DNA from: Obelidium mucronatum
Lineage: Eukaryota > Chytridiomycota > Chytridiomycetes > Chytridiales > Chytriomycetaceae
Assembly (NCBI GenBank): GCA_025765595.1
Contig: JAIVFH010000144.1
Location: forward strand, 1-64,000
Length of the DNA: 64,000 nt
Direction: 5' to 3'
Shown: positions 7,433-53,059 of the stretch, in pieces
How the letters are laid out: every line of letters begins with the position of its first letter
How positions within the stretch are numbered: the stretch's first letter is position 1
Program-made: the position numbers and the translations under genes
Notes under the pieces: model-generated
What the model saw: the letters and a program-made list of their open reading frames with translations, nothing else
What the model was told of the DNA's origin: nothing
Database searches by the model: none

Positions 7433-8615
7433 TTATTGGAAAAACTGTGCAATTGTTGTTGTTTGTGACTTAAAGAGTTTCGCTCTTTTACACGAGTCAC
7501 AAGCTTTGGGTTTTCGCTTCTTCGACAATTGATTGCTGCTCTCCAGGTGAATTCTTTTCTTTGAAATTGATGGCTCCGCCGCTATTGTTGGCATAATCAA
7601 GGCCTCTGCTGTTCCAGTCATTGTCGCATCCACAGTTTCTTCAGGTGCAATGGGAGGAACACAAGCAGCAATTTGCGGCACTATATCAATACCCACAAGA
7701 CTAGAAATTCCAGTAACGGCCGCTGGCGCCACTGGCGGTAATCGAACAGCCACCGCTGACGCTCCAACATTCGCTGTAGCCATTGGAACGGTTGCTGATT
7801 GACATGCTGATTGAGACTTCGACTTTCCTCGAGTAAATTTCATTCGAAGGGCATTTGGAGTCACCGATTGAAAGCTTGGGTCAAGCGCTCAGACCAAGAA
7901 TCTTCACTACGCTCTGCTCTTCCTGCACATTTCGTTGCATGTCAGCACTGTCAGGCTCAATTTGCAGGAGTTTGACAATCACAGCTTTATCGAGAATAAC
8001 AGGAGTTCCAACGTGACTCATAGATGTTTGAAAAAGGCGGCGAAACCCGAGTCGTTGAGAATTACTTGCAGTTGCCTCTTCAATGGCACTTTGGCTGTGG
8101 TGGTGATTTGGTGTTAAAAGACCAAAAAGGTCCCGCCACTTGGATAAGTTGGTTGCTCCTTCTGGAGAATAGCGCCAAACATCATTTGCTGGAAAGCAAA
8201 AGCTGTTTGATGAGAATCAGGAATCATTCCATTGATTGCTGCAGCGGCACGAGCTAAATCCGCGAACGGAACTGAATTTAATGTTGGAATACGGCCAAAT
8301 CGTTGACCTTGCTCCAAATTAACCTGTGAATTCAATCAGCATCACCAAAAATATGATAAGAATCTCGAACCAATATGAATCATCAGCAATCAAAGACCCA
8401 CACGCATAGAAACCGTTCGTCTGGGAAGTATTGCATTCAAGCCGCTGTTGGTCTCAACGATACTTCGCTCAATGCCGTTTTCAACATAGACATTACTGGC
8501 AATTGGCGACAAGTCTCCCAAGAATATATGTCGTAGAGTATTCAAGCATGTACCTTCCCACTCCGATTGGGTGCTTGATATATAATCGATTGGCGTTGTG
8601 TGGAATGTAGGGTAA
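7433..8615 (-). CDS. Hypothetical spliced gene with a partial Zn-cluster-like motif (uncertain, possibly broken)
   Basis: Several minus-strand coding-looking blocks lie in order. About 8404-8610 reads STQSEWEGTCLNTLRHIFLG onward. About 8114-8322 starts after a CACAG acceptor (VNLEQGQRFGRIPTL). About 7890-8100 contains SHVGTPVILDKAVIVKLLQ. 7433-7864 is Ala/Pro-rich and ends KKRKPKACDSCKRAK. ACDSCKRAK is how a fungal Zn2Cys6 cluster begins, but the remaining cysteines are absent and the reading ends at the hairpin cluster. The blocks do not join cleanly: stops lie between them. It may be a gene truncated at its 3' end by the hairpin block. No function is assigned. Confidence 0.35.
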
Positions 8616-27130: not shown

Positions 27131-27758
27131 GAAGGAAAATTGGAAAAAGAGGATAACCTTACCCCGGAAGGAATCAGACAAAAGCTAGGAAAATGGTTCA
27201 GGAACTCGATGGGACCACCATGAACCCAGCACACAGAGGAAGAGGAAGGCACAATTAACATGAAGACAGATCAATTCACATTTGAACAGGTTGCAGGATA
27301 TGGCCTAATACCGGAAGTAACACATGAATGAATCAAAAGATGTGGAGTCCAGAAGGCTGAAGGTATAAGGAGAATCATAATACAGACCTGGAAGGACTTT
27401 AGATACCAAGTAAAAGAAAAAGTTTGGAAGTACTGCAACGAAAGACAATTGAATTTGAACTTACATGTGGAATCACTGAATAGCAGAGTAGCATTTGGAT
27501 ACCTTGAAGTAAAACCCTATTTTGTAAAATATGCTGGTGTGCGCAACATCCATGTTCAAAGAATGTTTGCAACAGAGATCATTCAGGCCTGAATCTCAAA
27601 GTGATGTCCTGGATGACAGAGGTCATGATTCAAAGAACCTCCAAGTTGCTGCGTACTTTGAGATTGCACTGGGTTTTGTGCAACAGCGTATTTTAGAGAA
27701 GATCCAGGAAAGCTAGATTTATAAAGTGTGGATCACACAACCGAGCTTGATGAGCAGG

Positions 27759-27844
27759 GCCTCCTTAGCTCAGTTGGTCAGATCGCCTGCCTAGTATTTG
27801 TGCTGGATAGCAGGAAGTCAGCGGTTCAAATCCGCTAGGAGGCA
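27759..27844 (+). tRNA. tRNA-Thr(AGT), intron-containing, copy 1
   Basis: Acceptor GCCTCCT/AGGAGGC, anticodon stem CCTGC/GCAGG, anticodon AGT followed by a ~12-nt intron (TTTGTGCTGGAT), and T-arm AGCGGTTCAAATCCGCT. The D-stem 3' strand GATC is imperfect. Confidence 0.9.
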
Positions 27845-27939
27845 TCACTGCATCATCCTGCATGGTGTTATTTTGGTTCTGTTAGTTGCGCTGTTCAAAC
27901 ATCTATTCTCCCAAAAAGCATTATACTGAAGAGATGAAG

Positions 27940-28014
27940 CGCCCAATACTGGGATCGAACCAGTGACCTTGAGGTTAACAGCCCCACGCTACTGCCAAAC
28001 TGAGCCAACTGGGC
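27940..28014 (-). tRNA. tRNA-Asn(GTT), copy 1
   Basis: Acceptor GCCCAGT/ATTGGGC, anticodon loop CTGTTAA, T-arm ACTGGTTCGATCCCAGT. No intron. Confidence 0.92.
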
Positions 28015-28140
28015 TTGCCGTTCCGCTATGCATTAGATGCTCCTGTCAACAGGATTATGACCAACAGGACGTTTTTGTCTGCTTGGATTTGTTGAGTCTC
28101 TTTTTGAAAAATCCCAGGAGTCAATGGGTGAAACCCTAGA

Positions 28141-28386
28141 TTGAGAATTTACAAAGGACTAAGTCATTCAATCACAGCACCAGCAGTTATCGGCTTCATT
28201 TTTAGCCCAATTGTGGAGAGTTTACACAGCCATTGGTCAAACCCTAATTTGACAGAAATAAATGGAAAACAGACACATATTGTAAGACATGGCTGTCCTG
28301 GGATCACTAGCATTGTTTCTGACAACTGGAAAGAACTGGAAAAACAAACAGCTCTACTACACAAATTCCAGTTAAAAGAGCTGTGA
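28141..28386 (+). mobile_element. LINE reverse transcriptase scrap inside the unit
   Basis: ITSIVSDNWKELEKQTALLH resembles TNTVANNWKELEVQAALLYE of the second LINE (about 40700-40760), just after its RT active site. The same scrap recurs at about 32530-32762 and 36430-36660 in the other copies. It is dead in all. Confidence 0.55.
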
Positions 28387-28476
28387 CTAAAACATGGATG
28401 GGGTGGGGTTTTCTGATATTCACCAGGATCAACAAGTTGGTGTCCCAGATCCTGTCCTGATGCTGGTTCCATAGAG

Positions 28477-28783
28477 GTTTATCATAATCGGTAGGTGACG
28501 CAGCACCGGACGATCACAGCCGCTAGATGTTGTATGGCTAAGAGGCAGCTTATGACTCTCAGGGGAAGGGGCGGTGGACGTCGCTCGCGCACGAGCTTAC
28601 TTCCGCAGAAGCGACAAGGGTGAAGTATCGTGCACGCGCACACTTCTCCGCATGTTTGTCCCTTTTCCGGTGAAGGACATTTCCTCCTATTTATACCTTC
28701 AGAACTCTGAAACACGGGGGTGTTTCCTAAGAACTCTAAGGCCATGCTCCGCACGCCTACAGATTCCAACAAGGTTCTGCTCT
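28477..28783. repeat. 307-bp block present only in unit copy 1
   Basis: Copies 2 and 3 read straight from CCATAGAGGT to TCTGCTCTGACTC, while copy 1 has this block between. Part of it (CTTACTTCCGCAGA, then GGGTGAAGTATC) resembles the region after tRNA-Val in the same unit (29690-29740). It could be an insertion here or a deletion in the others. Confidence 0.6.
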
Positions 28784-29100
28784 GACTCAAACACCCCTGT
28801 AATATTTCAGGGGCGCCATGGAAGGTCAACTACTGGAGAGCAGTCTCAAAGTGTGTGACTCTGTGCACTCCTGCAGAAGTGACTAGGGAGTAACTGCAAT
28901 GAAACATGGAAAAGTTTGTCCCAATTTCTAGCCAGAAGAAACTCTCAAAACCCATGACAGGTTCTGGAATACTAAGGCCACGCTCCAGGGCCACAGCCAG
29001 ATTTATGCCAACTGAATGCTTGAAAACAAAACAGAGGACATTGGTATGAGCAACATTTCATTGTACTAACACAGAATCAACCACTCGTAAACAAGGCTAA

Positions 29101-29183
29101 CCGATGATAGCTCAGTTGGCAGAGCATCTGACTGTAACATTTCAGTAATCAGGAGGCCCCCGGATCGACCCCGGGTCGTCGGA
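29101..29183 (+). tRNA. tRNA-Tyr(GTA), intron-containing, copy 1
   Basis: Acceptor CCGATGA/TCGTCGG, D-arm GCTC/GAGC, anticodon stem TCTGA/TCAGG, anticodon GTA followed by a ~10-nt intron (CATTTCAGTA), T-arm CCCCGGATCGACCCCGG. Confidence 0.9.
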
Positions 29184-29539
29184 TTTAACTTTGGTTTGAG
29201 TTAGTTTTCATGACCAGTCATTCTTTTATTTGACACACAACGGGACCTTGGTTATTTTTCTATGGCCTGTTTTGGAACTTTTTGCTGAAAAGCAAGGCTG
29301 CTTCCTATTGTTGAGGGTGGGCCTGGCTTGAGGATATCCATTTGCTGGTTGAAACATTCTCTGTTGAACATTCATGCCTTATGAAGCTCCTTGGGATAAA
29401 AACTTCTTGACTCCAAATGTGCTCAAAGGAACTGGATGATGTAAAGTATGAGACAAGGGGGTGTATTACAGGAACCCTCAATACTGTGCCAGCCCTGAAA
29501 AGCCTGTGTCCTCAGCACCCCAAATAAAAACCTAACGTG

Positions 29540-29613
29540 TGTTTTCGCCCGGGTTCGAACCGGGGACCACCAGTGTGTTAGACTGGTGTGATAACCAACT
29601 ACACCACGAAAAC
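29540..29613 (-). tRNA. tRNA-Val(AAC), copy 1
   Basis: Acceptor GTTTTCG/CGAAAAC, anticodon loop CTAACAC in a CCAGT/ACTGG stem, T-arm CCCGGTTCGAACCCGGG. No intron. Confidence 0.93.
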
Positions 29614-30619
29614 TCATGCCTCTAGCTACTGTATGGAAATCACAAGCTGCTTGTCAGTTCACAGTGGCAAAGACACTGCTTGCAAGCGCAAACTTACTTC
29701 CGCAGAGTGACTAGGGTGAAGTATCATGGATGCCCACACTTTGCTGCAAGTCTGACTATTTCCACGTGAGGAAACTTCCTATATCCAGCAGGACACCTAC
29801 AGGTTCAAACTATCAAAGTCTGCTAGGCACGCCTCATCTCTAAGTCAATTTAAGTATTGATGGTTGATACTAAAAGAGTATTTTATTCAATAATGAAACG
29901 TGAAACCACCACTATATATTCCAAACATCTAAAGCATGCGATCAATGAGTTATGGTTAGCAGGCAACGTTTATACCTTTGGAAGTGATTGTGCAAGGTCA
30001 AGTTACTATTTTATGTGATGTGCGTTGTTCAGAAGAATATAAGAATTACATTCCTGACACAGGTTCTCCTGACTTGTAGAAGGGAGTTAAAAAAAGAAGA
30101 TCTATTTATCTTTCCGTCAATTTTTTGAAAGAGATGTTAACGCAGGGACAAGAATCTCATTCTCAGGATAAAAGCCATTCAGACACTCCTTGATTTCTAA
30201 TCGCTGAGTAGTCTGATAGAAGTCATCATATTTGGAATCTAATGCATCTTTCACCGGGAATCTGATAGAAATAAAAGGAAGCTTTTTCCAACGGAAATTT
30301 TGCTATCTGACCTTGCACATCCGACACCAACCATACTGCTGGGATGCCTAAAGATTCAGGCCATACTGCCAGCAGAGTTTTGGTAGCTGTGAGATACATG
30401 TACATGCTATGCAGACTGAACAGACTTCTCAGCTGGACTTGAATCCCATTGAATTGTTTGCACTCTAGCTCAGCTCTTCTGTCTTGCTTCTCTTTTCCGA
30501 GTCTGAATGGCGTGATGCAACCAGATGCAAGGCAGACTCGAGCCAGACACAAGGCACATCAAACAGTGCCACAGCACTGATTGGAAAACAATTTTGCCAA
30601 CAAAACTTCATCCATTCCT

Positions 30620-30701
30620 CGACTACGGCAGGATTTGAACCTGCGCTCCCAGAGGGAAGTAGATTTCTAGTCTACCGCCTTAACCGCTCGGCCACGTTGT
30701 C
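30620..30701 (-). tRNA. tRNA-Ser(AGA), copy 1, with acceptor mismatch
   Basis: 82 nt with the long variable arm of Ser tRNAs (TTCCCTCTGGGAG), anticodon loop CTAGAAA and T-arm GCAGGTTCAAATCCTGC. The acceptor GACAACG faces CGTAGTC, giving an A-A mismatch at the fourth pair. Copy 2 has CGTTGTC and pairs fully, so this copy may be impaired. Confidence 0.88.
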
Positions 30702-31169
30702 ATGGGACTGCTTGCAGTTCCGCGTTACTCTTGTTCAAATAGGCATCCACAGTATTGCTGTTCTTTTTTGCCAGTGCGAGGCAATAAGGGTACACTTGCT
30801 AACTCCTTTATGACTAATGCACAGATTAGGTAGCAGCTTGCTAGACTAGTAGCCCTGTTGATGTTGACGTTGACATTTTCTATTGAGATATAGTTTCAAC
30901 CACTTAAAGCTTCTTTTGTGACAATTCTTTTCTTTATCTTTACTTCTTGTTTGGAACTCTATGCATTGTGCTATTATTATTCACGTCTACACACATTGTT
31001 CTTAGTTTTTGGTTATTTGAAGCAGAAAATTGAAACTAGCTTCATGAGGGGTCTAGTTCCTTGAATCTTTCATAATTTAGAGTACTCCCATGGCTTTATA
31101 TATCCTATGACATACAACCCCCAAGCACTGCTGTTATACCAATGACTAAGGTTTTGGTTTTGAGTGATT

Positions 31170-31213
31170 TAAGCCCTAGCCCTAACCCTAGCCCTAAACC
31201 CCTTACCCTAAAA
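31170..31213. repeat. Interstitial telomere-like repeats, copy 1
   Basis: Degenerate CCCTAA/CCCTAG words in a row (AAGCCCTAGCCCTAACCCTA, then GCCCTAAACC, then CTTACCCTAAAA). CCCTAA is the complement of the TTAGGG telomere repeat common in fungi. The same block recurs at 35068-35110. Confidence 0.7.
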
Positions 31214-31403
31214 AACATCCTTTGCATAGCTGCTGAAAACATCAAATCCAGTTGTATCTACTGCTATGGATACATCAGCAGCCAAGTATACTGATCTATT
31301 CCTCATTGGTGGGAACTAGGGGTTTTTGGGGAGCTGTGTTTTGAGTCAGCAGTTGATAGATGCCAATGTACAGAAAGCTGCACATGAAAATCACAGGACA
31401 AGG

Positions 31404-31476
31404 GCCACCTTAGCTCATCTGGGAGAGCGTAGCACTGAAGATGCTAAGGTAGTGTGTTCGATCCACACAGGTGGCA
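31404..31476 (+). tRNA. tRNA-Phe(GAA), copy 1
   Basis: Acceptor GCCACCT/AGGTGGC, D-arm GCTC/GAGC, stem TAGCA/TGCTA around the CTGAAGA loop, T-arm GTGTGTTCGATCCACAC. No intron. Confidence 0.94.
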
Positions 31477-32134
31477 GATTGGATCTATACTGATGGTCCT
31501 GGCCCTGCCTGCTGTACAAGGAAGGTGTGGGGCTTGAGAGGCCATTGGGGGACATTTGGGCTGGTTCCATCTTGGCTTTTGCGAGCCACGCTGCAAGGTT
31601 TTGTAGTTTTGTCAAGAATGCCATTGTATTAGGCAGGTGTGAGTCGGTGCAATCAGCTCAAACTTGATATTACTGCCCTGCAAAAAGAGATTTGCAACTT
31701 TTCCACCAGTTATGAAACATTCCTTTTTGGTGGCATTTGATGTCCCCACCCTGAAACAAGAGTTCACTGATGTCCCTCCACGCACAATCACAAACAAGCA
31801 AGAAGCTCATTACCCCTGAAAGCCTGTAATGCATGAGCCACACTCTCTTGATGAGGACAGCTTCATGGTCACTAAGGATTAATAGTAGCATTTGGATACC
31901 TTGAAGTAAAACCCTATTTGGAAAAATATGCTGGTGTGCGCAACATCCATGTTCAAAGAATGTTTGCAACAGAGATCATTCAGGCCTGAATCTCAAAGTG
32001 ATGTCCTGGATGACAGAGGTCATGATTCAAAGAACCTCCAAGTTGCTGCGTACTTTGAGATTGCGATTTTACAGTAAGATCCAGGAAACCTAGATTTATA
32101 AATGTGGATCACACAACCAAGTTGGATGAGCAGG

Positions 32135-32220
32135 GCCTCCTTAGCTCAGTTGGTTAGATCGCCTGCCTAGTATTTGTGCTGGATAGCAGGAAGTCAGCGG
32201 TTCAAATCCGCTAGGAGGCA
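32135..32220 (+). tRNA. tRNA-Thr(AGT), intron-containing, copy 2
   Basis: Differs from copy 1 only in the D-loop (GGTTAG rather than GGTCAG). Anticodon AGT and the same short intron. Confidence 0.9.
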
Positions 32221-32315
32221 TCACGGCATCATGCTGTAGGGTATTATTTTGGTTCTGTTAGTTGCGCTGTTCAAACATCTATTCTCCCAAAAAGCATTAT
32301 ACTGAAGAGATAAAG

Positions 32316-32390
32316 CGCCCAATACTGGGATCGAACCAGTGACCTTGAGGTTAACAGCCCCACGCTACTGCCAAACTGAGCCAACTGGGC
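32316..32390 (-). tRNA. tRNA-Asn(GTT), copy 2
   Basis: Identical to copy 1 across the 75-nt gene; the flanks differ slightly. Confidence 0.92.
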
Positions 32391-33178
32391 TTGCCATGGA
32401 GCTATGCATTAAATTCTACTGTCAGCAGGAATATGACCGACAGGACGTTTTTGTCTGCTTGGATTTGTTGAGTCTCTTTTTGAAAAATCCCAGGAATCAA
32501 TGGGTGAAACCTTAGATTGAGAATTTACAAAGGACTAAGTCATTCAATCACAGCACCAGCAGTTATCAGCTTCATTTTAGCCCAATTGTGGAGAGTTTAC
32601 ACAGCCATTGGTCAAACCCTAATTTGACAGAAATAAATGGAAAACAGACACATATCGTAAGACATGGCTGTCCTGGGATCACTAGCATTGTTTCTGACAA
32701 CTGGAAAGAACTGGAAAAACAAACAGCTCTACTACACAAATTCCAGTTAAAAGAGCTGTGACTAAAACATGGATGGGGTGGGGTTTTCTGCTATTCACCA
32801 GGATCAACAAGTTGGTGTCCCAGATCCTGTCCTGATGCTGGTTCCATAGAGGTTCTGCTCTGACTCAAACACCCCTGTAATATTTCAGGGGCACCATGGA
32901 AGGCCAACTACTGGAGAGCAGTCTCAAAGTGTGTGACTCTGTGCACTCCTGCAGAAGTGACTAGGGAGTAACTGCAATGAAACATGGAAAAGTTTGTCCC
33001 AATTTCTAGCCAGAAGAAACTCTCAAAACCCATGACAGGTTCTGGAATACTAAGGCCACGCTTCAGGGCCACAGCCAGATTTATGCCAACTGAATGCTTG
33101 AAAACAAAACAGAGGACATTGGTATGAGCAACATTTCATTGTACTAACACAGATTCAACCACTTGTGAACAATGCTAA

Positions 33179-33261
33179 CCGATGATAGCTCAGTTGGCAG
33201 AGCATCTGACTGTAACATTTCAGTAATCAGGAGGCCCCCGGATCGACCCCGGGTCGTCGGA
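33179..33261 (+). tRNA. tRNA-Tyr(GTA), intron-containing, copy 2
   Basis: Identical to copy 1 over 83 nt, including the intron. Confidence 0.9.
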
Positions 33262-33617
33262 TTTAACTATGGTTTGAGTTAGTTTTCATGACCAGTCATT
33301 CTTTTATTTGACACACAACGGGACCTTGGTTATTTTTCTATGGTCTGTTTTGGAACTTTTTGCTGAAAAGCAAGGCTGCTTCCTATTGTTGAGGGTGGGC
33401 CTGGCTTGAGGATATCCATTTGCTGGTTGAAACATTCTCTGTTGAACATTCATGCCTTATGAAGCTCCTTGGGGTAAAAACTTCTTGACTCCAAATGTGC
33501 TCAAAGGAAGTGGATGATGTAAAGTATGAGACAAGGGGGTGTATTACAGGAACCCTCAATACTGTGCCAGCCCTGAAAAGCCTGTGTCCTCAGCACCCCA
33601 AATAAAAACCTGAAGCG

Positions 33618-33691
33618 TGTTTTCGCCCGGGTTCGAACCGGGGACCACCAGTGTGTTAGACTGGTGTGATAACCAACTACACCACGAAAAC
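33618..33691 (-). tRNA. tRNA-Val(AAC), copy 2
   Basis: Identical to copy 1 in the mature gene. Confidence 0.93.
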
Positions 33692-34517
33692 CCATGTTTC
33701 TGGCAAGTGTATGGAAATTACCATCTTCTCGTCAGTTCACAGTGGCAAAGACACTGCTTGCGAGCGCAAACTTACTTCCGCAGAGTGACTAGGGTGAAGT
33801 ATCATGGATGCCCACACTTTGCTGCAAGTCTGACTATTTCCACGTGAGGAAACTTCCAATATCTAGCAGGACACCTACAGGTTCTAACTATCAAAGTCTG
33901 CTAGGCACGCCTTATCTAAGTCAATTTAAGTATTGATGGTTGATACTAAAAGTGTATTTTATTCAATAATGAAACATGAAACCACCACTATATATTCCAA
34001 ACATCTAAAGCATGCAATCAATAAGTTATGGTTAGCAGGCAACGGTTATACCTTTGGAAGTGATTGTGCAAGGTCAAGTTACTATTTTATGTGATGTGCG
34101 TTGTTCAGAAGAATAAAAGAATTGCATTCCTGACACAGGTTTTCCTGATAACCGGGAATCTGATAGAAATAAAAGGAAGCTTTTTCCAACGGAAATTTTG
34201 CTATCTGACCTTGCACATCTGACACCAACCATACTGCTGGGATGCCTAAAGATTCAGGCCATACTGCCAGCAGAGTTTTGGTAGCTGTGAGATACATGTA
34301 CATGCTATGCAGACTGAACAGACTTCTCAGCTGGACTTGAATCCCATTGAATTGTTTGCACTCTAGCTCAGCTCTTCTGTCTTGCTTCTCTTTTCCGAGT
34401 TTGAATGGCGTGATGCAACCAGATGCAAGGCAGACTCGAGCCAGACACAAGGCACATCAAACAGTGCCACAGCACTGATTGGAAAACAATTTTGCCAACA
34501 AAACCGCATCCATTCCT

Positions 34518-34599
34518 CGACAACGGCAGGATTTGAACCTGCGCTCCCAGAGGGAAGTAGATTTCTAGTCTACCGCCTTAACCGCTCGGCCACGTTGTC
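34518..34599 (-). tRNA. tRNA-Ser(AGA), copy 2
   Basis: Same as copy 1 but with a fully paired acceptor (GACAACG/CGTTGTC). This is the better candidate for the working gene. Confidence 0.94.
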
Positions 34600-35067
34600 A
34601 TGGGACTGCTTGCAGTTACGCGTTACTCTTGTTCAAATAGGCATCCACAGTATTGCTGTTCTTTTTTGCCAGTGCAAGGCAATAAGGGTACACTTGCTAA
34701 CTCCTTTATGATAATGCACAGATTAGGTAGCAGCTTGCTAGACTAGTAGCCCTGTTGATGTTGACGTTGACATTTTCTATTGAGATATAGTTTCAACCAC
34801 TTAAAGCTTCTTTTGTGACAATTCTTTTCTTTATCTTTACTTCTTGTTTGGAACTCTATGCATTGTGCTATTATTATTCACGTCTACACACATTGTTCTT
34901 AGTTTTTGGTTATTTGAAGCAGAAAATTGAAACTAGCTTCATGAGGGGTCTAGTTCCTTGAATCTTTCATAATTTAGAGTACTCCCATGGCTTTATATAT
35001 CCTATGACATACAACCCCCAAGCACTGCTGTTATACCAATGACTAAGGTTTTGGTTCTGAGTGATTT

Positions 35068-35110
35068 AAGCCCTAGCCCTAACCCTAGCCCTAAACCCCT
35101 TACCCTAAAA
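35068..35110. repeat. Interstitial telomere-like repeats, copy 2
   Basis: Same CCCTAA/CCCTAG stretch as at 31170-31213. Confidence 0.7.
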
Positions 35111-35299
35111 AACATCCTTTGCATAGCTGCTGAAAACATCAAATCCAGTTGTATCTACTGCTATGGATACATCAGCAGCCAAGTATACTGATCTATTCCT
35201 CATTGGTGGGAACTAGGGGTTTTTGGGGAGCTGTGTTTTGAGTCAGCAGTTGATAGATGCCAATGTACAGAAACTGCACATGAAAATCACAGGACAAGG

Positions 35300-35372
35300 G
35301 CCACCTTAGCTCATCTGGGAGAGCGTAGCACTGAAGATGCTAAGGTAGTGTGTTCGATCCACACAGGTGGCA
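35300..35372 (+). tRNA. tRNA-Phe(GAA), copy 2
   Basis: Identical to copy 1 over 73 nt. Confidence 0.94.
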
Positions 35373-36029
35373 GATTGGATCTATACTGATGGTCCCGGCC
35401 CTGCCTGCTGTACAAGGAAGGTGTGGGGCTTGAGAGGCCATTGGGGGACATTTGGGCTGGTTCCATCTTGGCTTTTGCGAGCCACGCTGCAAGGTTTTGT
35501 AGTTTTGTCAAGAATGCCATTGTATTAGGCAGGTGTGAGTCGGTGCAATCAGCTCAAACTTGATATTACTGCCCTGCAAAAAGAGATTTGCAACTTTTCC
35601 ACCAGTTATGAAACATTCCTTTTTGGTGGCATTTGATGTCCCCACCCTGAAACAAGAGTTCACTGATGTCCCTCCACGCACAATCACAAACAAGCAAGAA
35701 GCTCATTACCCCTGAAAGCCTGTAATGCATGAGCCACACTCTCTTGATGAGGACAGCTTCATGGTCACTAAGGATTAATAGTAGCATTTGGATACCTTGA
35801 AGTAAAACCCTATTTGGAAAAATATGCTGGTGTGCGCAACATCCATGTTCAAAGAATGTTTGCAACAGAGATCATTCAGGCCTGAATCTCAAAGTGATGT
35901 CCTGGATGACAGAGGTCATGATTCAAAGAACCTCCAAGTTGCTGCGTACTTTGAGATTGCGATTTTACAGAAGATCCAGGAAACCTAGATTTATAAATGT
36001 GGATCACACAACCAAGTTGGATGAGCAGG

Positions 36030-36115
36030 GCCTCCTTAGCTCAGTTGGTTAGATCGCCTGCCTAGTATTTGTGCTGGATAGCAGGAAGTCAGCGGTTCAA
36101 ATCCGCTAGGAGGCA
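36030..36115 (+). tRNA. tRNA-Thr(AGT), intron-containing, copy 3
   Basis: Identical to copy 2. Confidence 0.9.
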
Positions 36116-36210
36116 TCACGGCATCATGCTGTAGGGTATTATTTTGGTTCTGTTAGTTGCGCTGTTCAAACATCTATTCTCCCAAAAAGCATTATACTGA
36201 AGAGATGAAG

Positions 36211-36285
36211 CGCCCAATACTGGGATCGAACCAGTGACCTTGAGGTTAACAGCCCCACGCTACTGCCAAACTGAGCCAACTGGGC
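36211..36285 (-). tRNA. tRNA-Asn(GTT), copy 3
   Basis: Identical to copies 1 and 2. Confidence 0.92.
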
Positions 36286-37076
36286 TTGCCAGTTCCGCTA
36301 TGCATTAGATTCTACTGTCAGCAGGATTATGACCGACAGGACGTTTTTGTCTGCTTGGATTTGTTGAGTCTCTTTTTGAAAAATCCCAGGAAGTCAATGG
36401 GTGAAACCCTAGATTGAGAATTTACAAAGGACTAAGTCATTCAATCACAGCACCAGCAGTTATCAGCTTCATTTTAGCCCAATTGTGGAGAGTTTACACA
36501 GCCATTGGTCAAACCCTAATTTGACAGAAATAAATGGAAAACAGACACATATCGTAAGACATGGCTGTCCTGGGATCACTAGCATTGTTTCTGACAACTG
36601 GAAAGAACTGGAAAAACAAACAGCTCTACTACACAAATTCCAGTTAAAAGAGCTGTGACTAAAACATGGATGGGGTGGGGTTTTCTGATATTCACCAGGA
36701 TCAACAAGTTGGTGTCCCAGATCCTGTCCTGATGCTGGTTCCATAGAGGTTCTGCTCTGACTCAAACACCCCTGTAATACTTCGAGGGCACCATGGAAGG
36801 CCAACTACTGGAGAGCAGTCTTGCAGTGTGTGACTCTGTGCACTCCTGCGGAAGTGACTAGGGAGTAACTGCAATGAAACATGGAAAAGTTTGTTCCAAT
36901 TTCTAGCTTAGAAGAAACTCTCAAAACCCATGACAGGTTCTGGAATACTAAGGCCACACTCCAGGGCCACAGCCAGATTTATGCCAACTGAATGCTTGAA
37001 AACAAAATAGAGGACATTGGTATGAGCAACATTTCATTGTACTAACACAGAATCAACCACTTGTGAACAAGGCTAA

Positions 37077-45118: not shown

Positions 45119-45174
45119 AGCACCGGATGGGGGTTGATCCCATGACCTCGGGATTTGCAGTCCTACGCTCTACC
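45119..45174 (-). pseudogene. tRNA-Cys(GCA), 3' part, split by an insertion
   Basis: On the minus strand this reads GGTAGAGCGTAGGA, the CTGCAAA anticodon loop, a variable loop, a T-stem ATGGG/CCCAT and the acceptor strand CCGGTGC plus T. The 5' acceptor and most of the D-arm are missing here and occur at 52961-52980. The last four plus-strand bases (TACC, 45171-45174) are repeated at the other half. Confidence 0.9.
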
Positions 45175-45176
45175 CT

Positions 45177-45199
45177 GTAAAGTTTCTGGGACATTTGCT
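45177..45199 (+). promoter_or_regulatory. Left recombination arm of the tRNA-Cys element
   Basis: GTAAAGTTTC followed by TGGGACATTTGCT, two bases inside the TACC. It is inverted relative to 52941-52963. If the ends were joined in a circle, the two arms would face each other across about 3 bp, like a tyrosine-recombinase binding site. Confidence 0.7.
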
Positions 45200-45232
45200 C
45201 GCGCTGCGAGTAAATGGCCCAGAAACTTGACC
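45196..45232. repeat. Triloop hairpin and partial palindrome at the left end
   Basis: CTCGC, GCT loop, GCGAG forms a tight hairpin (about 45199-45211). Beyond it, AAATGGCCCAGAAACTT (45213-45229) mirrors AAGTTTCTGGGACATTT of the arm with one mismatch, so the whole end can fold into one large cruciform. Confidence 0.65.
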
Positions 45233-45238
45233 ACTCAT

Positions 45239-45408
45239 GCGTCGCAGACTTACCATCGTTTTTCTATACTCGCATGCGTCGCAGACTGATTGGACCTTTT
45301 TTTATTACTGTTTTAGCGTCGCAGACTCGTTTACCCAGCCTTTTACTGTCTTGCGTCGCAGACTCACTGCTCCAGCGACACTTTATCGACTCATTTGCGT
45401 CGCAGACT
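45239..45408 (+). repeat. Five iterons GCGTCGCAGACT
   Basis: Exact 12-mers start at 45239, 45276, 45316, 45353 and 45397, spaced 37-44 bp, all in one orientation. They lie between the left arm and the first recombinase gene. Such subterminal repeats usually bind the element's own protein; that role is inferred. Confidence 0.85.
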
Positions 45409-45425
45409 CATTCTGGAACCTGGTA

Positions 45426-45502
45426 CGGACCGTTTTTTGGTTTTTGGCTGTTTTTTATGTTGGGAATATGGTGGTTTTTTCGGACAAAAAACACGGTCCG
45501 AT
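45426..45502. repeat. Inverted repeat after the iterons
   Basis: CGGACCGTTTTTTG and CAAAAAACACGGTCCG face each other across about 45 bp. It lies upstream of the first recombinase gene and could be a regulatory or structural site. Confidence 0.55.
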
Positions 45503-45754
45503 TTGCTCTATCTCAGAACTATATCGACTATTCTGAGTCGATCTGTAATAAGGAAAAGTCTCTAGGACGAATGCCTGGATGTGGATTTTGAAAATAAGGA
45601 TCGAAAATCAGCCATTTAAATACAAATTAAATACTAATATTAAAATACTAGATGCGACGACACTTCACCGACCGACCCTCCTTCCTTTCTTTGATTAAAT
45701 CCCTTATTCTTTAACTAAATTCTTTTTCATTTTATTGATAGGTGACACCTCGTT

Positions 45755-48711
45755 ATGCTGCCCAAAGGCTACTTTTCGTATGCATCAAATATGGTCGCAA
45801 TGACCGCTCCCAATAATACAAACCGCATCGATCCGATTCGATATACTCGAAACTACATAGCCACTTGTGCGGAGGCAGAGGACGATGTGTTTGTCGACGT
45901 TCAATCAGAATCCGATGCCGTCAACAGTACCGACGAATCGGAACACGCCGCTGCAGCAAATAACAAAAGAACTTTTGATTCTGCGTCTGCAAGTCGTTCT
46001 TTTGTCGGAAATCCTGGAAAATTAGTGCCACAAACCGCAATTAAACGAGTTAAAGTGGACAGTGAGGCGAAAAACTGGACTGACGCTTTGGATTGGAATA
46101 GCCCCGGAGAAAGCGATGCTGAAAATATGGAAGCGGAAGATTTGGTCTCTGACGAAGAATGCGGTCAGTGACTTTCCTTGTTTCGACGCGTTCTTAATTA
46201 ACAAAACTATTACATCAGATGATGGTGACGCTACAGAACGTGCACGCAGCAATTACGACGATTTCGACGATGAACTGGAACCCGCCGCGCCGATTTCCAA
46301 AAAGATCCGCCGTGGACCACAAAAAAAACCGCTTCTACTTACTGCCGCCGCAACACGCAAGAAAGCCTATCGCGAATCTACAAAGAAATCGAACGTGCAA
46401 TTGCTTCCTCTTGTCGAATTTTCTCTCCCAAACAACAAAAAGGTCTTGGCAGAAATGCCAATGACCAACAACTTTTTTCTTCGAAACACGGCTCAAAATG
46501 CAATGACGCGACTCCATGCCACGATTCGAGATAGCGGTAAATTTTTGAGCTTATTTTTTTTTGTTTCATTTTTTTTCTGATTATTTGTTTTAAGCTTCCC
46601 TTCTGGAAGAAGAAAAGGCAACCCTGAATGTCTTTGTGGTCTTTTTTTACGGCCACCCTCTCTACGACGCGCTGATTGTCTCACTGATTCGAAACTACTC
46701 TTCAATGTCCACCGAAACCAAAAACGACGTCAACAACATCGCCAACGATTTTCTCACCAAGCTTCAAGCCCCTGGATTGAGTACATATCGCTCTGTTCGC
46801 CGCTCCTTCTACAGATATGCGGAATATATGGAGGAGCACTTGCAAGATCTTGCACGATTAGTGGACGAAGCGGAAGCAGCAAAGCAACCCACCAATCACT
46901 TGGTGGATCTCATTCACCAGTTTCGCGAGTATCTGACCAAACCAAAGACAAGTCTTCATGGCGTCAAATTCATCAAAATGTATGGTGAAAAGGAGTTGGA
47001 ACGAAAAAACTCTCAGTCCAGAAACGGAGCCAAAGGTTTTGGTTCTTTTCAGTTGCTTGTTTTTCGTCAATGCTAATTTTATTTCTTCATCAGGAACAAA
47101 ACAAGCGACTCCATACCACAAACAGGCGTTTATTTGGGTGATTCGAATCTGCCAAGCGATTTTAGGTGTCAAGATTGACTTTGACCGTGAATCGCTCAGT
47201 GCCGAATCAAGTTCGTTTTTTTTCTTGCTTTTTTTTTGTTTTCGAAAATAACAGCTGACAATTGCTACAGCCAATATTCGCGCCAACGTCGGCCAAGAAT
47301 ATCAAATCAACGACGTCGACCGCCAGGCTACCAAGCGCAAGGCGGCTTTGTCGTATGAGGACCAGATTGCCGCTCGCGAGTATTTCTACACGTCCAATCG
47401 CGTCAATCCCTTTGATGGGATTGTTTTCTTGAATATGGGCCGCGCAATGATGACCCGAGCTCAAGAGCGCCGTTTTACTGAATACTTGGACCTTGACGCA
47501 AATGAGCACTACACAGCTTCCTACACGGACCGAAACAAAAGCAGAATTCCGAAGATGATGGTCACTGAGCTCTTAATGGACAAGAATAAGCTGTCGCATC
47601 TTTTTAGTCATGTCGGTCAAGATGACAAGTCCATTGTTTCTGCTGCCACCCACCGCAATGCTGCATTTTCTGTCGATGTTGCGGTCGCTCAATTTTTGTT
47701 TCAAAAGCATTCAGTCCTAAAGATTGCTTGGCCGCCCTTCGAAGACGGGTACGATGTTTGCAAAAGATATGCACTGATGCCAGGAACAGACCCGTTGAAG
47801 CCAATGTCCCACGGCAACTTGAATCAAATGTTGCGAAGCTGTTATACTACTATTGGTCGCTATACTGCTGGATTGGTTACTCACTTGGAACGTAAGGAAG
47901 GGTCGTATTGGCGCCGAGCGTTGGGATGTCCCAATGAAGAAATTGAGGATTCAAACTGGAGTTCGGGACAGCAAACTGGAAAAAAGGCGGTCTACAAGTC
48001 GGTTTACAACAAGGGATTCAGTACTGATTTTATTGTGGCCAGCACCGACCACGGCGTTTGTGAACAAAAGGAGGTTTATTTTATTCCCTGGGACGTCGAT
48101 GTAAGTATTAGTGCACTTTCAATTGCGTATATGCTGCTGACTTTTATTTTAGGTTCCTCAGAATCTTTTGGATTCGACGTGGCCTGAGTTGGATCCCTTC
48201 TTTCAACTGATTGCGGCAAGTGCTCCAGGTTTCGGCGACAGCGAATCGTTTCAAGGATTAGCCCGAGCGCTTAGTCTTTTCAAGAAGCGGTTGTATCAAG
48301 GTTTGTCAATTTATTGATTTGAGTTACAAACTAACCTGCTCAACAGGAACTGCCCATAACATCTACACTGGAATTCTGAAGGAGAATAATCCATTCTTAA
48401 AACACGACGTGTTTCAATCACCGGACTTCAAATTGGTGTTGAAACGTGTTTCAGTCTCTTGCGATGAATACACCGCAAAGTGCGATGCTGCGGTAAGAAT
48501 CTTGAGACAAAATAGCGTGATTTAATCTGTCTTGTTCCAGGGCGCCTGTGGTCCAGCTCCATCGGACTTGGTCGATATTGGAATTTCTGGAGAAAGGCGT
48601 CTCCTTTCACGTTTGGATTCTCAAGATGCTATCATCGGGGGACTTAATACCAATGTAGAATCGTTGATGGCCATGGTTCAGGCTCTGTTGGATAGGCCAT
48701 CAAATGTTTGA
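45755..48711 (+). CDS. Crypton-like tyrosine recombinase (Ndc10/GCR1-like), gene 1
   Basis: Proposed to cut and rejoin DNA at the element ends. Eight exons: 45755-46163, 46219-46536, 46595-47035, 47094-47210, 47271-48100, 48153-48300, 48347-48492 and 48541-48711. Total 2580 bp, 859 residues, no stops, all introns GT-AG. The N-terminal half is acidic and Lys/Arg-rich. The catalytic part (exon 5) shows MMTRAQERR (candidate first Arg), ATHRNAAFSTD-like AATHRNAAFSVDVAVAQF, THLERKEGSYWRRALG (H-x-x-R) and YKSVYNKGF (candidate Tyr), then HGVCEQKEVYFIPWDVD. These follow the order R, H-x-x-R, Y of fungal Crypton proteins with Ndc10 domain 2. The later Met at 45791 is an alternative start. Convergent with its paralogue, 147 bp apart. 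Confidence 0.82.
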
Positions 48712-48858
48712 GCATGAAAAAAGGATGTACTTGTTACATCCAGATAACTGGTTTCATTTATTGCAAATAAACCAGGGTTACCCTACGCAAAATCTCTTCA
48801 CTTCTTTATTCCAATGCTTACATTCTTTCACTTCGCAATGGCTTAAATCTTGGCTCAA

Positions 48859-51800
48859 TTAAATAGTGTCAGATCTGGAATGGACAAGCAATGTCAACAT
48901 TTCAAGTGCTGTCTTCATATTTGCCTTGAGTTCATCGTTGCGTGCTTGAAGTTGGTGAATGTTTTCCTCTTGTATTGCTAATTTATTTAGCAACGTTGTC
49001 TGAAGTTCCTTGAGCTGCCGTGTGTTGCATTCGCGGTCTGTTTCAGCCATCCTTCCCTCATTCTGAATAAATGCCAATGAAAGACTGAACTATCAACATA
49101 AGACCAAAACAAAAGTAGAATGTACCTCTAACAAAACTCTAGCATATTTATCACATTCCAATTTGACCAAAGAACGCAGTAGCAAAAATTCAGCTGATTT
49201 AAAATTCTGATGATTCAATATCGGGTCGTCTTCACGAAGAGAGCCAGTATAAAGCAAATGAGCACATCCTGTGTTTTCGATCACATTAAAATGTTTTCGT
49301 TGGTCAATTGGTCAAAAGAAATCCTACCTGTATATAGCCGACCCTTTAGCTGTTTGATGCTACGAACCAACCCTGCCATACCATGGTTGTTGGCAAAGCC
49401 TGGTGCACCGGAGTCCACAAGCGCTATAATTTCATTGAAAAAAGGCCAGGTTGCGGCCAAAAGGCTGGCAGGTACCTGAAACGTTTTGATTCAAAACATT
49501 GGGTATGAAACAAGTAAAAACCTACCTCAACATCCCAAGGAATGTGGTACCTTTCAAAACACTCCGCTACCCCATGGTCTGTATTGACCACCACAAACTC
49601 TTTGGAGTAGCCTTCATTATATGCAGACAAGAACACAGGTTTTTTTCCTGGTTTTTTGTTGAGACTCCAGTTTGCCTTTTCAATGTGTTCGACCCCACAA
49701 CCCCTCCTTATAAGTGCCTCAGAACCATTGGTTCTAGTGTGATGGCCAACAAGTCCAGGGAAAAATTTACCCACGTGAATCAGCCCACGCTTTAAAACCT
49801 TGTTCATTGTCGAGTTTGAAATTGGATTCGACTCATTGCTTCCAGGAAAAAGAAAACAGTTCTTGCAAGCATCGTGGCCTCCTGCAAAATCTGGGACCTT
49901 GTTCTTTCGAACTTCAAAGTGCTCCTGGAAATGCAGAGCAAGAGCAACGTCTGTTGAGAACAACGCATTTCTGTGGGTAGCCACAGTCATGGTAGTTGTA
50001 GCGTTCATACCAACTTTTGTAAATGCGTGAAGCAGCTTCGATCGCTTTAACGTAACAGTCATTTGTAGCATTTGAGGCACCTGTTGGCGTGGCGTACAGT
50101 GCTGCGAGTCCACCATGTGAGCATCCAAGTTGAGAATCCCCGGTATTCTTCGCTCTTGTCCACGAGCCATTGTTTGCCCCCCAAGATTTTCCAAGGCCAG
50201 GTGAGTGAACCGATTGATATTCTTGTCCTTGAGGTTCAAGATAAAAAGGCGAAGCTCCAGCTTGTCGGAATCTGTCAAGCTGACCTTTTTTCTTGAAGAT
50301 TGTCTGTCAATTTCGTTGTCAGCCCAAGCCTGGCCCACAGCCAATCTAATACGGCCTGAAATAAAGCATAAGCGTTTCCTCCGATGGAAAACTTGTCATG
50401 TCTGCAGATACCTGATTCAACTGCCATTGCCTTTAGATTTCCAGTCAACGGCACAATGTTGTCATACAAACAAGAGGAAATCTTATGGATGATTTCAAAC
50501 GCTTGCTTACAATAATCAGTAGCCATCTTCACCCCTTTCAAAGAAAAGGATAAGTATAAAGCCAAACTACAATGTGAGTACATACCTCTGATTCCATTGA
50601 GAGATGATGAAGTTGCACGATCCATGGGCTTTGTTCCATAGATCCTAATAAACATTTTCCCATGCATATTGGGATCAGGTTTATACCCAGCCACTTCATA
50701 CGCCGCAATCTCCTCCTCAACAGATTCAACTGATTGGCCTCGCGATAAAAGATTCACCCTCATCTCTTTCAACTCCAACAGGTACTCTGCCATGAATTCA
50801 ACATAACGAAAAAGGGCTTTGCGTAATGAGAGGTATGTGGACAACCCTGGGATTCGCATTTTCTCAAAAAGCCAGCTTGACAGAGCATCTAATTGGTTTC
50901 GAAATTCCAGGCTTCGAGTCGAATACCTTTCGACCATGATTCTTAGTATTGGACTAAGAAGTGTGTGGCCTGCAAATGCCGTGACAAAGACATGCAGATA
51001 TTCTCTTTGATTGGGACGAAGACTATCTAATTTAATGCAACATTATTGATGGGAGGCGAATAGGAATAAAATAAACAAGTATACTTGTGTCATTGATCAT
51101 CTGATGAATGCCCATCATCTCGTTCCTTCTTCGCACCCCTTCACGCATGTTGATGCATGGAGGCATTATTTCAGTATATCCCCCCCCTGGATAACTATAT
51201 GGGACTGGAGCAATGGCCACTGGAACTGGTAACTTATTTTCGGATCTGGTTTGCCGTTTACGGACAGCCTCGGGATTCTGAGACAGAGATTTTTTGCTGG
51301 GTCCGCGGTGGCGTGCTGGTACGACTAGCGGTGGCGTAGATGCCGTTTCGGTGTCATTCTTTGATTCTGGATCAGATTCTAGAATCTCTGCTTCTTCTCG
51401 GTCGCTCCAACTGTCGGAATCCTCTTCATCTAGTTTAAAGCTTTATTAATGATATTTATTTGCCAAGTGTTAAGAAATACCAGAGCCGCTGTCAGTTCCG
51501 TTTTCGTCAGAATCCTCAAACCACTCATTCAGTTTCCTTGATTTTCTATTTTCACCGCCAACAAGATCATCCTCTAATATTTGGTGTTAATTACGATCAT
51601 ATAGCAATATTTGTGGATCGAAAACAGACTTACCATTACCATTTTGGCGCATTCGTTTTTCCTTTGGAGCCGAAGGCTTCAGGACAGCACTGAATTGATT
51701 TATAACCTCTGACGCGGATTCTTTCACATTGTGAGTTAACTAAATTCGATTAATAAAACTCACCAGACAGTGTCGAGCTTATTTTTTGCAAGGTCGTCTT

Positions 51801-52003
51801 CACTCTCGTGACAATGGAAGCTTGATTTGCCAATGCCCCTTGTTTCGGACGCCATCAGCATAAGTATCATAGTATGGGATTTGTCTGGTCCTGTAGAAAC
51901 CTGATAATGGGTGTGTTTCTTCATGTCGTTGCTTGAGTGGGTGAGCGCGAGTTGCTGCAGAATTCATTTCAGAACTCAATTTGACAGAACAGCTAAATCG
52001 CAT
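48859..52003 (-). CDS. Crypton-like tyrosine recombinase (Ndc10/GCR1-like), gene 2
   Basis: Paralogue of gene 1. Eleven exons from 51901-52003 through 51764-51838, 51634-51720, 51481-51573, 51085-51429, 50586-51026, 50412-50534, 49526-50355, 49328-49475, 49126-49268 to 48859-49062. Total 2592 bp, 863 residues, no stops. Exons of 441, 830 and 148 bp are exactly the size of the matching gene 1 exons. Catalytic landmarks: ARGQERRIPGILNLD, ATHRNALFSTDVALAL, GHHTRTNGSEALIRRG (H-x-x-R) and FLSAYNEGY, then HGVAECFERYHIPWDVEV. The C-terminus is a predicted coiled coil (CNTRQLKELQTTLLNKLAIQ). The two proteins have diverged clearly, so this is an old duplication with both copies kept. An internal Met at about 51967 is an alternative start. 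Confidence 0.82.
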
Positions 52004-52009
52004 GAATTA

Positions 52010-52430
52010 CCAAAAGCATTGCCGAAACAAATCCTGGATAAGAATCTCGCATATGTCTAAATTGGCTAAAGGAGAAGTGTTCAAGACAAAAGGAGTTGGA
52101 GCCTTCTCAAAAACTACAGCTGAAAGCGTGTTTTCGTGATTTTCGAAGAGAAGCAAAAATAAATAAGAAATAAAGATGCTTGTTTATTAAATGCACATAG
52201 GTACTTCAATGGACTTTCAATATGCAGGATGTTCGTGACTGCGAGCGAAAAATTTCCGTTCTCACATTATCGTAAGTGAAGATCCTGAACACAGCACACC
52301 GGAGCAGACCATTCCGTAGTCCTTTCGATCAAGTTGTACTTGATTGGAAGCGGAGATCGGGATAAATGAGGACGAAGTTACTCAAGGTGATGGGACTATT
52401 GTCGATAGAAAGACAAACGCACCATGGATG
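52010..52430. other. Right part of the element without a gene
   Basis: AT-rich upstream region of recombinase gene 2. No separate gene is supported; a short frame at 52344-52697 overlaps the repeat motifs and looks spurious. Confidence 0.45.
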
Positions 52431-52433
52431 CAA

Positions 52434-52862
52434 ATTCGAAATTCTGTTGCAGCGAATCAGTTCCATTCAAGGTTAGTAAATACTGTGCCGAACCTGAGCG
52501 AGCTGTCGATTCTCCTGGATGAGCGAAAAAGCAGTGATCCAGTATCCGTCCTGAGACCAAAATCGAAATCCTGGCGCAGCGAAACAGATTTATTTCGAGT
52601 AGAGAAGGGCTGTGTAGAAGATGGAGGCGGTGCGGGGTGCGTAGAGCAAATGGCGGCGACGATTTGTGTTTTTTCGATGGGGATCGATCCAGTTTGATAG
52701 GAGGCTTATTTTGACATTCTGACGCAGCCAAAAGCATCAAATTGGCGTGTAGAATGCACTGATTTAGTGGGGTTACGATTCGACGTAAGATGGGCGACTT
52801 ATGTTTGGTGGAGGACCCTTTTTCGGAGAGGGATTTTCGACATTCTGATGCGGCGAAAATCG
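52434..52862. repeat. Four right-end repeat motifs
   Basis: Related words at about 52436 (AAATTCTGTTGCAGCGAA), 52566 (AATCCTGGCGCAGCGAAA), 52714 (ACATTCTGACGCAGCCAAA) and 52839 (ACATTCTGATGCGGCGAAAA). They are less exact than the left iterons. Position suggests recombinase-binding or replication repeats of the right end. Confidence 0.65.
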
Positions 52863-52892
52863 AGTATTTGATGCATTTCATGCATCGATCGA

Positions 52893-52940
52893 GTATGGCG
52901 GCCGTAGGCCGCCAGTGGAGCAGATGGCGGAGCCATCTGT
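52893..52940. repeat. Two triloop hairpins at the right end
   Basis: GGCGGCC, GTA loop, GGCCGCC (about 52898-52914) and AGATGGC, GGA loop, GCCATCT (about 52923-52939). They sit directly inside the right arm, mirroring the hairpin of the left end. Confidence 0.7.
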
Positions 52941-52963
52941 AGCAAATGTCCCAAAAAATTTAC
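52941..52963 (-). promoter_or_regulatory. Right recombination arm of the tRNA-Cys element
   Basis: AGCAAATGTCCCA followed by AAAAATTTAC. It is the inverted partner of 45177-45199 with 21 of 23 matches, and its last three bases overlap the TACC direct repeat. Confidence 0.7.
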
Positions 52964-52980
52964 CACTGAGCTACCAGTGC
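52961..52980 (-). pseudogene. tRNA-Cys(GCA), 5' part, split by an insertion
   Basis: On the minus strand: GCACTGG acceptor, TA, then GCTCAGTGGTA of the D-arm, stopping exactly at the element boundary. Joined to 45119-45174 through GGTA it gives a 72-nt tRNA-Cys with acceptor GCACTGG/CCGGTGC fully paired (one G-T). Confidence 0.9.
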
Positions 52981-53059
52981 TTAGTGAGCTCTCAGTGCTT
53001 AGTTATTATCTTAGTCTCATTCATTATAATATTTTGATGTAAAAAGCAAATGCCCCAAA

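Follow-up and report, generated by a model that had tools for sequence, protein, structure and literature searches.

A Crypton-like element with two tyrosine-recombinase genes inserted in the D-loop of a tRNA-Cys gene of the chytrid Obelidium mucronatum

The D-loop of a tRNA-Cys(GCA) gene in the aquatic chytrid fungus Obelidium mucronatum (Chytriomycetaceae) is the exact insertion point of a 7,786-bp element that has inverted arms at its ends and carries two tyrosine-recombinase-like genes with the signature residues. The element lies in the window, i.e., the whole stretch of 64,000 nucleotides analyzed here (contig JAIVFH010000144.1 of assembly GCA_025765595.1, positions 1-64,000, plus strand). 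A characteristic feature of prokaryotic mobile DNA is that its tyrosine recombinases target tRNA genes. In the literature examined, the eukaryotic elements known at such genes are either retrotransposons or DDE transposons. With its readable empty site, its inverted core arms and its pair of recombinase genes, a fungal tyrosine-recombinase element located in a tRNA D-arm would be a eukaryotic counterpart of the prokaryotic solution. The locus would also be a small system for site recognition by a Crypton-type recombinase, a putative relative of the kinetochore protein Ndc10. Table 1 lists the features.

Table 1. Features of the element and of the interrupted tRNA-Cys gene (positions in the window)
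Feature	Position	Strand	Remarks
tRNA-Cys(GCA), 3′ part	45119..45174	-	includes the shared GGTA (TACC on the plus strand)
Left direct repeat	45171..45174		TACC, 4 bp, at the junction
Inserted element	45175..52960		7,786 bp, one TACC excluded per side
Left terminal inverted repeat	45177..45199	+	23 bp, 21/23 to the right one
Left-end palindrome	45177..45231		terminal repeat plus inverted second copy; 26-bp arms, 88%; z -9.3
Iterons	45239..45408	+	five exact GCGTCGCAGACT after the left end, at 45239, 45276, 45316, 45353, 45397
Gene A	45755..48711	+	tyrosine-recombinase-like; 8 exons, 859 aa; R491, H633, R636, W658, Y674; splice sites inferred
Gene B	48859..51924	-	tyrosine-recombinase-like; ~10 exons, 862 aa; R486, H626, R629, W651, Y667; splice sites inferred
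Two right-end hairpins	52896..52939		beside the right terminal repeat; stems 52896-52914 and ~52920-52940; z -5.1 for 52890-52964
Right terminal inverted repeat	52941..52963	-	23 bp; outer 3 bp overlap the shared TACC
Right direct repeat	52961..52964		TACC, 4 bp, at the junction
tRNA-Cys(GCA), 5′ part	52961..52980	-	includes the shared GGTA
Tandem near-duplication	52967..53002		2 x 18 bp, 2 mismatches (16/18); tRNA start plus 4 bp upstream; outside the element
GGGACATTTGCT upstream of tRNA-Cys	53045-53056	-	also at L010, L017, L019, L022

An earlier note on this DNA had proposed that the two parts of the tRNA-Cys gene, both on the minus strand, give a complete 72-nt gene when joined through the shared TACC. 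Their coordinates were confirmed. ARAGORN identified 12 tRNA genes in the 64-kb window as it stands and no tRNA-Cys, i.e., the element leaves the gene broken and its integration restored no tRNA. Once the flanks were joined through GGTA, the same program called a tRNA-Cys(GCA). Two queries were run against the 48.3-Mb assembly (694 contigs), one with the 20 nt of the 5′ half, allowing 2 mismatches, and one with the first 25 nt of the 3′ half, allowing 3. Each half was found in 15 places; 14 of the pairs are adjacent and constitute intact genes, and the sole separated pair, 7.8 kb apart, is that of the window. Of the 14 intact genes, 12 match the joined gene at every position (72/72) and the other two at all but one (71/72), which bears out the proposed join and the reconstruction of the empty site. 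In addition, an uninterrupted tRNA-Cys gene lies at loci C202 and C28 between flanks that match those of the window at either end, the neighboring tRNA-Ile gene included. Therefore, the empty state was observed as well as reconstructed. These are paralogous loci rather than alleles (BLAST blocks ~85-100% identical). C28 is collinear with the window and has extra DNA upstream of its tRNA gene, whereas in C202 (L010, ~2042-2341) a ~300-bp segment with the tRNA-Cys gene is inverted between collinear flanks with respect to both the window and C28.

Two other readings of the interrupted gene were discarded. A functional split tRNA or a giant tRNA intron was ruled out because the insert has two recombinase genes and inverted ends and because 14 intact genes exist. 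A chimeric assembly was ruled out by the single-base agreement of the tRNA halves with the duplication and the inverted ends.

The symmetric end structures described in the earlier note were also found, as inverted termini and as hairpins at both ends (Table 1). The match between the terminal repeats was equaled by only 2 of 20,000 random pairs of stretches taken from the interior of the element. The repeats are not flush with TACC, as 2 bp separate it from the left one and the outer 3 bp of the right one lie within it. When the ends are joined as a circle they form AGAAACTTTAC-AGG-GTAAATTTTTT, a core with inverted arms. The iteron GCGTCGCAGACT was absent, at up to 1 mismatch, from loci L009-L025. 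The end hairpins, the palindrome and the iterons may be functional. A search of the assembly with each end, in which short or very common words were skipped, found no further copies of either one.

The interrupted D-arm, GCTC-AGTGGTA-GAGC, has a 7-bp loop flanked by short inverted arms, which is the geometry of a tyrosine-recombinase core site. The sequence GCTCAGTGGTAGAGC has 31 exact matches in the assembly (0 for the reversed control), 14 of them in the intact tRNA-Cys genes. At least 10 of the other 17 sites coincided with tRNA hits (63 of 2,792 candidates scored), and two of these 10 are tRNA-Ala genes according to ARAGORN. tRNA genes occupy at most 0.43% of the assembly, counting all 2,792 first-look candidates. 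Five of the 15 tRNA-Cys genes also have the 12- to 15-bp core of the terminal repeats, GGGACATTTGCT, in their upstream sequences, at a distance of 56 to 79 bp, and these upstream sequences belong to two different families. When 2 mismatches were allowed, the genome had 233 matches to the 15-mer of this core and 78 to the reversed control. Weaker matches were seen by eye near tRNA-Phe and tRNA-Ser genes of the window, at a different position. Near tRNA-Cys genes, GGGACATTTGCT may be the scar of an old insertion, a site of recognition or an upstream element of these genes, and it could also be a promoter element of tRNA genes in general.

The interior of the element contains the two genes that had been taken for intact tyrosine-recombinase-like genes, and both could indeed be spliced into uninterrupted frames of 859 (A) and 862 (B) amino acids. 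The gene models are predictions with splice sites picked by eye, and the first exon of B is uncertain because its first donor is non-consensus. A and B are convergent and paralogous (33% identical). The putative catalytic signature R, H-x-x-R, W and Y is present in A, B and three relatives from R. globosum; the motif alone also turns up by chance in other reading frames. Proteins of the A/B type gave a weak match to the NDC10_II profile, and a profile search of solved structures with the recombinase returned chance helical matches only. An AlphaFold2 model of P0004 with four relatives (pLDDT 51.5) had a best Foldseek E value of 0.26 and nothing meaningful among its matches. With P0001 first (pLDDT 44.2), Foldseek ranked Ndc10 first and second (E 0.47 and 1.2), and only VIA-align 2 set Ndc10 apart from the other fold matches. 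The best fold match of the recombinase, as judged from this low-confidence model, would be yeast Ndc10.

Relatives of the recombinases were searched for at the protein level, scoring the best 7,994-7,996 candidates by shared words per search. All relatives among the scored candidates came from O. mucronatum or R. globosum. P0001 and P0005, from O. mucronatum, are nearly identical to the two recombinases, and the A-type proteins of R. globosum, P0002, P0003 and P0004, share 63%, 61% and 53% identity, respectively. The B-type search returned only the O. mucronatum copy among its scored candidates; it missed the A-type proteins as well and therefore does not imply that B is absent elsewhere. A scan of viral contigs confirmed no relatives. 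The predicted N-terminus of P0003 includes S-V-A-D-S and S-V-A-D-R, which are close to the C-V-A-D-S encoded in one frame of the window iteron, and these peptides hint that the iterons may be conserved in R. globosum. The pair C66 and C176, which are 100% and 99.5% identical over two overlapping stretches, encodes a more distant relative that scored 66 and 50 bits against the profile of the A/B family. Among the weak low-complexity matches of the C66 relative is one to GCR1_C that stays below threshold (17.3 bits versus a cut-off of 23), and the gene may represent a distant link between the element and CryptonF. Other recombinase-like genes of the same genome were located at L046 and L049 (C66), L047 and L050 (C176), L086 (C33) and L087 (C56).

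The window element is the only copy with both ends that was found in the assembly. A second large copy, in C366 (L011, 1-7247), matches window positions 47009-50963 at 99% and 45541-47337 at 98% in the opposite orientation. Neither end is left in this copy, which shows a rearrangement with a 329-bp inverted overlap and includes 938 bp of foreign DNA. Its gene A has a stop at codon 29, and its gene B lacks the arginines R486 and R490, a loss shared by P0005. CpG decay accounts for 20 of the 46 differences between C366 and the window, and only 3 go in the reverse direction; therefore, the window copy looks less decayed. The comparison of these two copies (in gene A, 3 synonymous and 12 non-synonymous differences in 479 codons of one block and 2 and 8 in 450 codons of the other; in gene B, 6 and 6 in 608 codons) is uninformative about selection. 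P0006, another predicted protein on C366, overlaps the recombinase; its match to Pol_BBD falls slightly short of the cut-off.

The C366 copy lies 567 bp upstream of an intact tRNA-Cys gene, which it does not split. An island-like integration that restored this tRNA was ruled out because the intervening 567 bp consist of other repeats and native upstream sequence. Downstream of the same gene, C366 (7397-8237) has ~840 bp with 36-nt inverted ends; the paralogous locus C553 lacks this segment, which is probably a short, unrelated transposon. Decayed fragments of the element were found in C44 (~675 bp), C502 (~260 bp) and C113 (~100 bp), none of them inside a tRNA gene. The C44 fragment is 500 bp upstream of an intact tRNA-Ala gene and the C113 fragment ~2.2 kb from one; no tRNA gene was found in 7 kb around that of C502. 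The location of two of the four remnants (C366 and C44) within 0.6 kb upstream of an intact tRNA gene is suggestive of a link, and repeat-rich, tRNA-dense regions could also be the source of this proximity. The earlier interpretation was sustained with respect to the precise insertion, the reconstruction of the empty site, the Crypton-like recombinase and the fungal host; one complete insertion is insufficient to establish a habitual preference of the element for tRNA genes or for their D-arms. As to whether the other copies all sit in D-arms, the sole complete copy does, and C366, endless and beside a tRNA-Cys gene, neither confirms nor refutes it. Since the other copies have no ends, the window copy is the only one in this genome that informs on targeting.

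We hypothesize that a Crypton-like element in circular form entered the D-arm of the tRNA-Cys gene through the action of its tyrosine recombinase or recombinases, which we consider the probable course of events. The D-arm, recognized as such rather than hit by chance, would be the attB site, and the joined ends of the element, with the 23-bp inverted arms meeting at TTTAC-AGG-GTAAA, would be its partner. Catalysis would be due to A, B or both. A crossover within the shared GGTA would leave one GGTA at each junction. The element would have brought no replacement tRNA half and therefore have broken the gene, a loss that would be tolerable because at least 14 intact copies exist.

Xer recombinases act as a heteromeric pair, with one protein per half-site. 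We propose, tentatively and with doubts that outweigh our confidence, that A and B may be a similar pair acting on the imperfectly symmetric core, in a eukaryotic Crypton-like lineage that has the tRNA D-arm, which we take to be the A box, as its attB and that places the cost on a multicopy tRNA family instead of carrying a tRNA fragment. The GGGACATTTGCT copies upstream of tRNA-Cys genes could be a second recognition point.

Other explanations of the insertion were considered. An ordinary Crypton-like element with little target preference, e.g., for a core as short as GGTA, could have landed in the tRNA gene by chance. There is one complete insertion, the other large copy and the three fragments lie outside tRNA genes, GGTA is a very common word, and tRNA genes are frequent on the contig, with 12 in 64 kb. 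Nonetheless, we regard this explanation as rather unlikely in view of the small share of the assembly that tRNA genes represent and the cut within a stem-loop that has the geometry of a core site; the other copies are no evidence of free targeting because their ends have been lost. It is very unlikely, in turn, that the termini are those of a tRNA-targeting DDE transposon, such as a relative of Dada, and that the recombinase genes are passengers. The inverted repeats of DDE transposons are generally flush with the target duplication, unlike the offset termini of this element, and no Pfam match to a transposase, DDE or otherwise, was found in A, B or ten other open reading frames. Inverted termini next to a short direct repeat would be expected from such a transposon, and Dada, like the element, is a eukaryotic DNA transposon located precisely within tRNA genes, in some families in the A box with duplication of TAGCTC; according to the excerpts of its description, however, Dada has a DDE transposase and duplications of 6-7 bp, as opposed to 4 bp here (PMC3706591). 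A composite of a Crypton and a Mariner is known in Fusarium (PMC3212892).

The tRNA gene hit by a prokaryotic island is restored by a tRNA fragment that the island brings along (PMC4383910). The element could have behaved in the same manner, contributing the 5′ part of the tRNA gene, in which case the outer 18-bp near-copy would be the displaced original. This near-copy (16/18) lies directly outside the 5′ half, and none was found upstream of the other 14 tRNA-Cys genes. However, CTAA precedes the tRNA in both 18-bp copies and is missing at C202 and C28, and therefore a local tandem duplication suffices in one step. As the tRNA gene is still split and nothing was restored, an origin of this kind is extremely unlikely.

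The recombinase-mediated insertion into the D-arm that we favor was compared with known systems. Prokaryotic integrases use tRNA arms, where a 7-bp loop and a palindromic stem resemble a core site (PMC8371274), and the element shares with these systems the tyrosine recombinase, the tRNA attB and the loop and palindromic stem as core. It differs in that prokaryotic islands mostly use the anticodon loop, the T arm or the 3′ end (PMC8371274, PMC4383910) instead of the D-loop, and in that they restore the tRNA. As in Cryptons, the tyrosine-recombinase genes are the sole recognizable enzyme genes, the host is a fungus, and the terminal direct repeats are short (4 to 6 bp in Cryptons; TACC at both junctions here); unlike Cryptons, which have been described without terminal inverted repeats, the element has 23-bp inverted termini (PMC3212892). 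Two recombinase genes and a location in a tRNA gene also set it apart from Cryptons; the insertion sites of CryptonV families are microsatellites (PMC8869645). The earlier designation as Crypton-type is therefore plausible in the broad sense of a DNA transposon moved by its own tyrosine recombinase, and the inverted ends and two recombinases make the element a Crypton variant. It is not a CryptonF in the strict sense, since GCR1_C gave no match at E values up to 1 in A, B or P0001-P0005. Among the literature matches listed from a limited collection of papers, none was on a Crypton, or on any other eukaryotic transposon with a tyrosine recombinase, located within a tRNA gene.

The fold match and the weak NDC10_II match may point to a likeness to yeast Ndc10, of the CBF3 complex. 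The DNA-binding domain of Ndc10 is a relative of tyrosine recombinases, as the title of a reference in PMC6077249 states; Ndc10 differs in being a centromere protein, and PMC3212892 reports that the catalytic site of its Crypton-like portion is not preserved. Endogenous nimaviruses are likewise eukaryotic tyrosine-recombinase elements with fixed multicopy targets, i.e., 28S rDNA and telomere repeats, but they are large crustacean viruses with a recombinase of another group and other targets (PMC10871703). For the polinton-like viruses of cryptophytes, some of which have tyrosine recombinases, no tRNA genes were reported within the 1 kb scanned around the inserts (PMC12220804).

Elsewhere in the window, positions 27724-36673 are occupied by a tandem repeat with a unit of ~3.9 kb that includes tRNA-Asn, tRNA-Val, tRNA-Ser and tRNA-Phe genes, with partial copies further on at a spacing of 4.1-4.4 kb. 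At 27759-27844, ARAGORN called an unusually long tRNA-Gly(gcc) of 86 nt, perhaps a gene with an intron or a mis-call.
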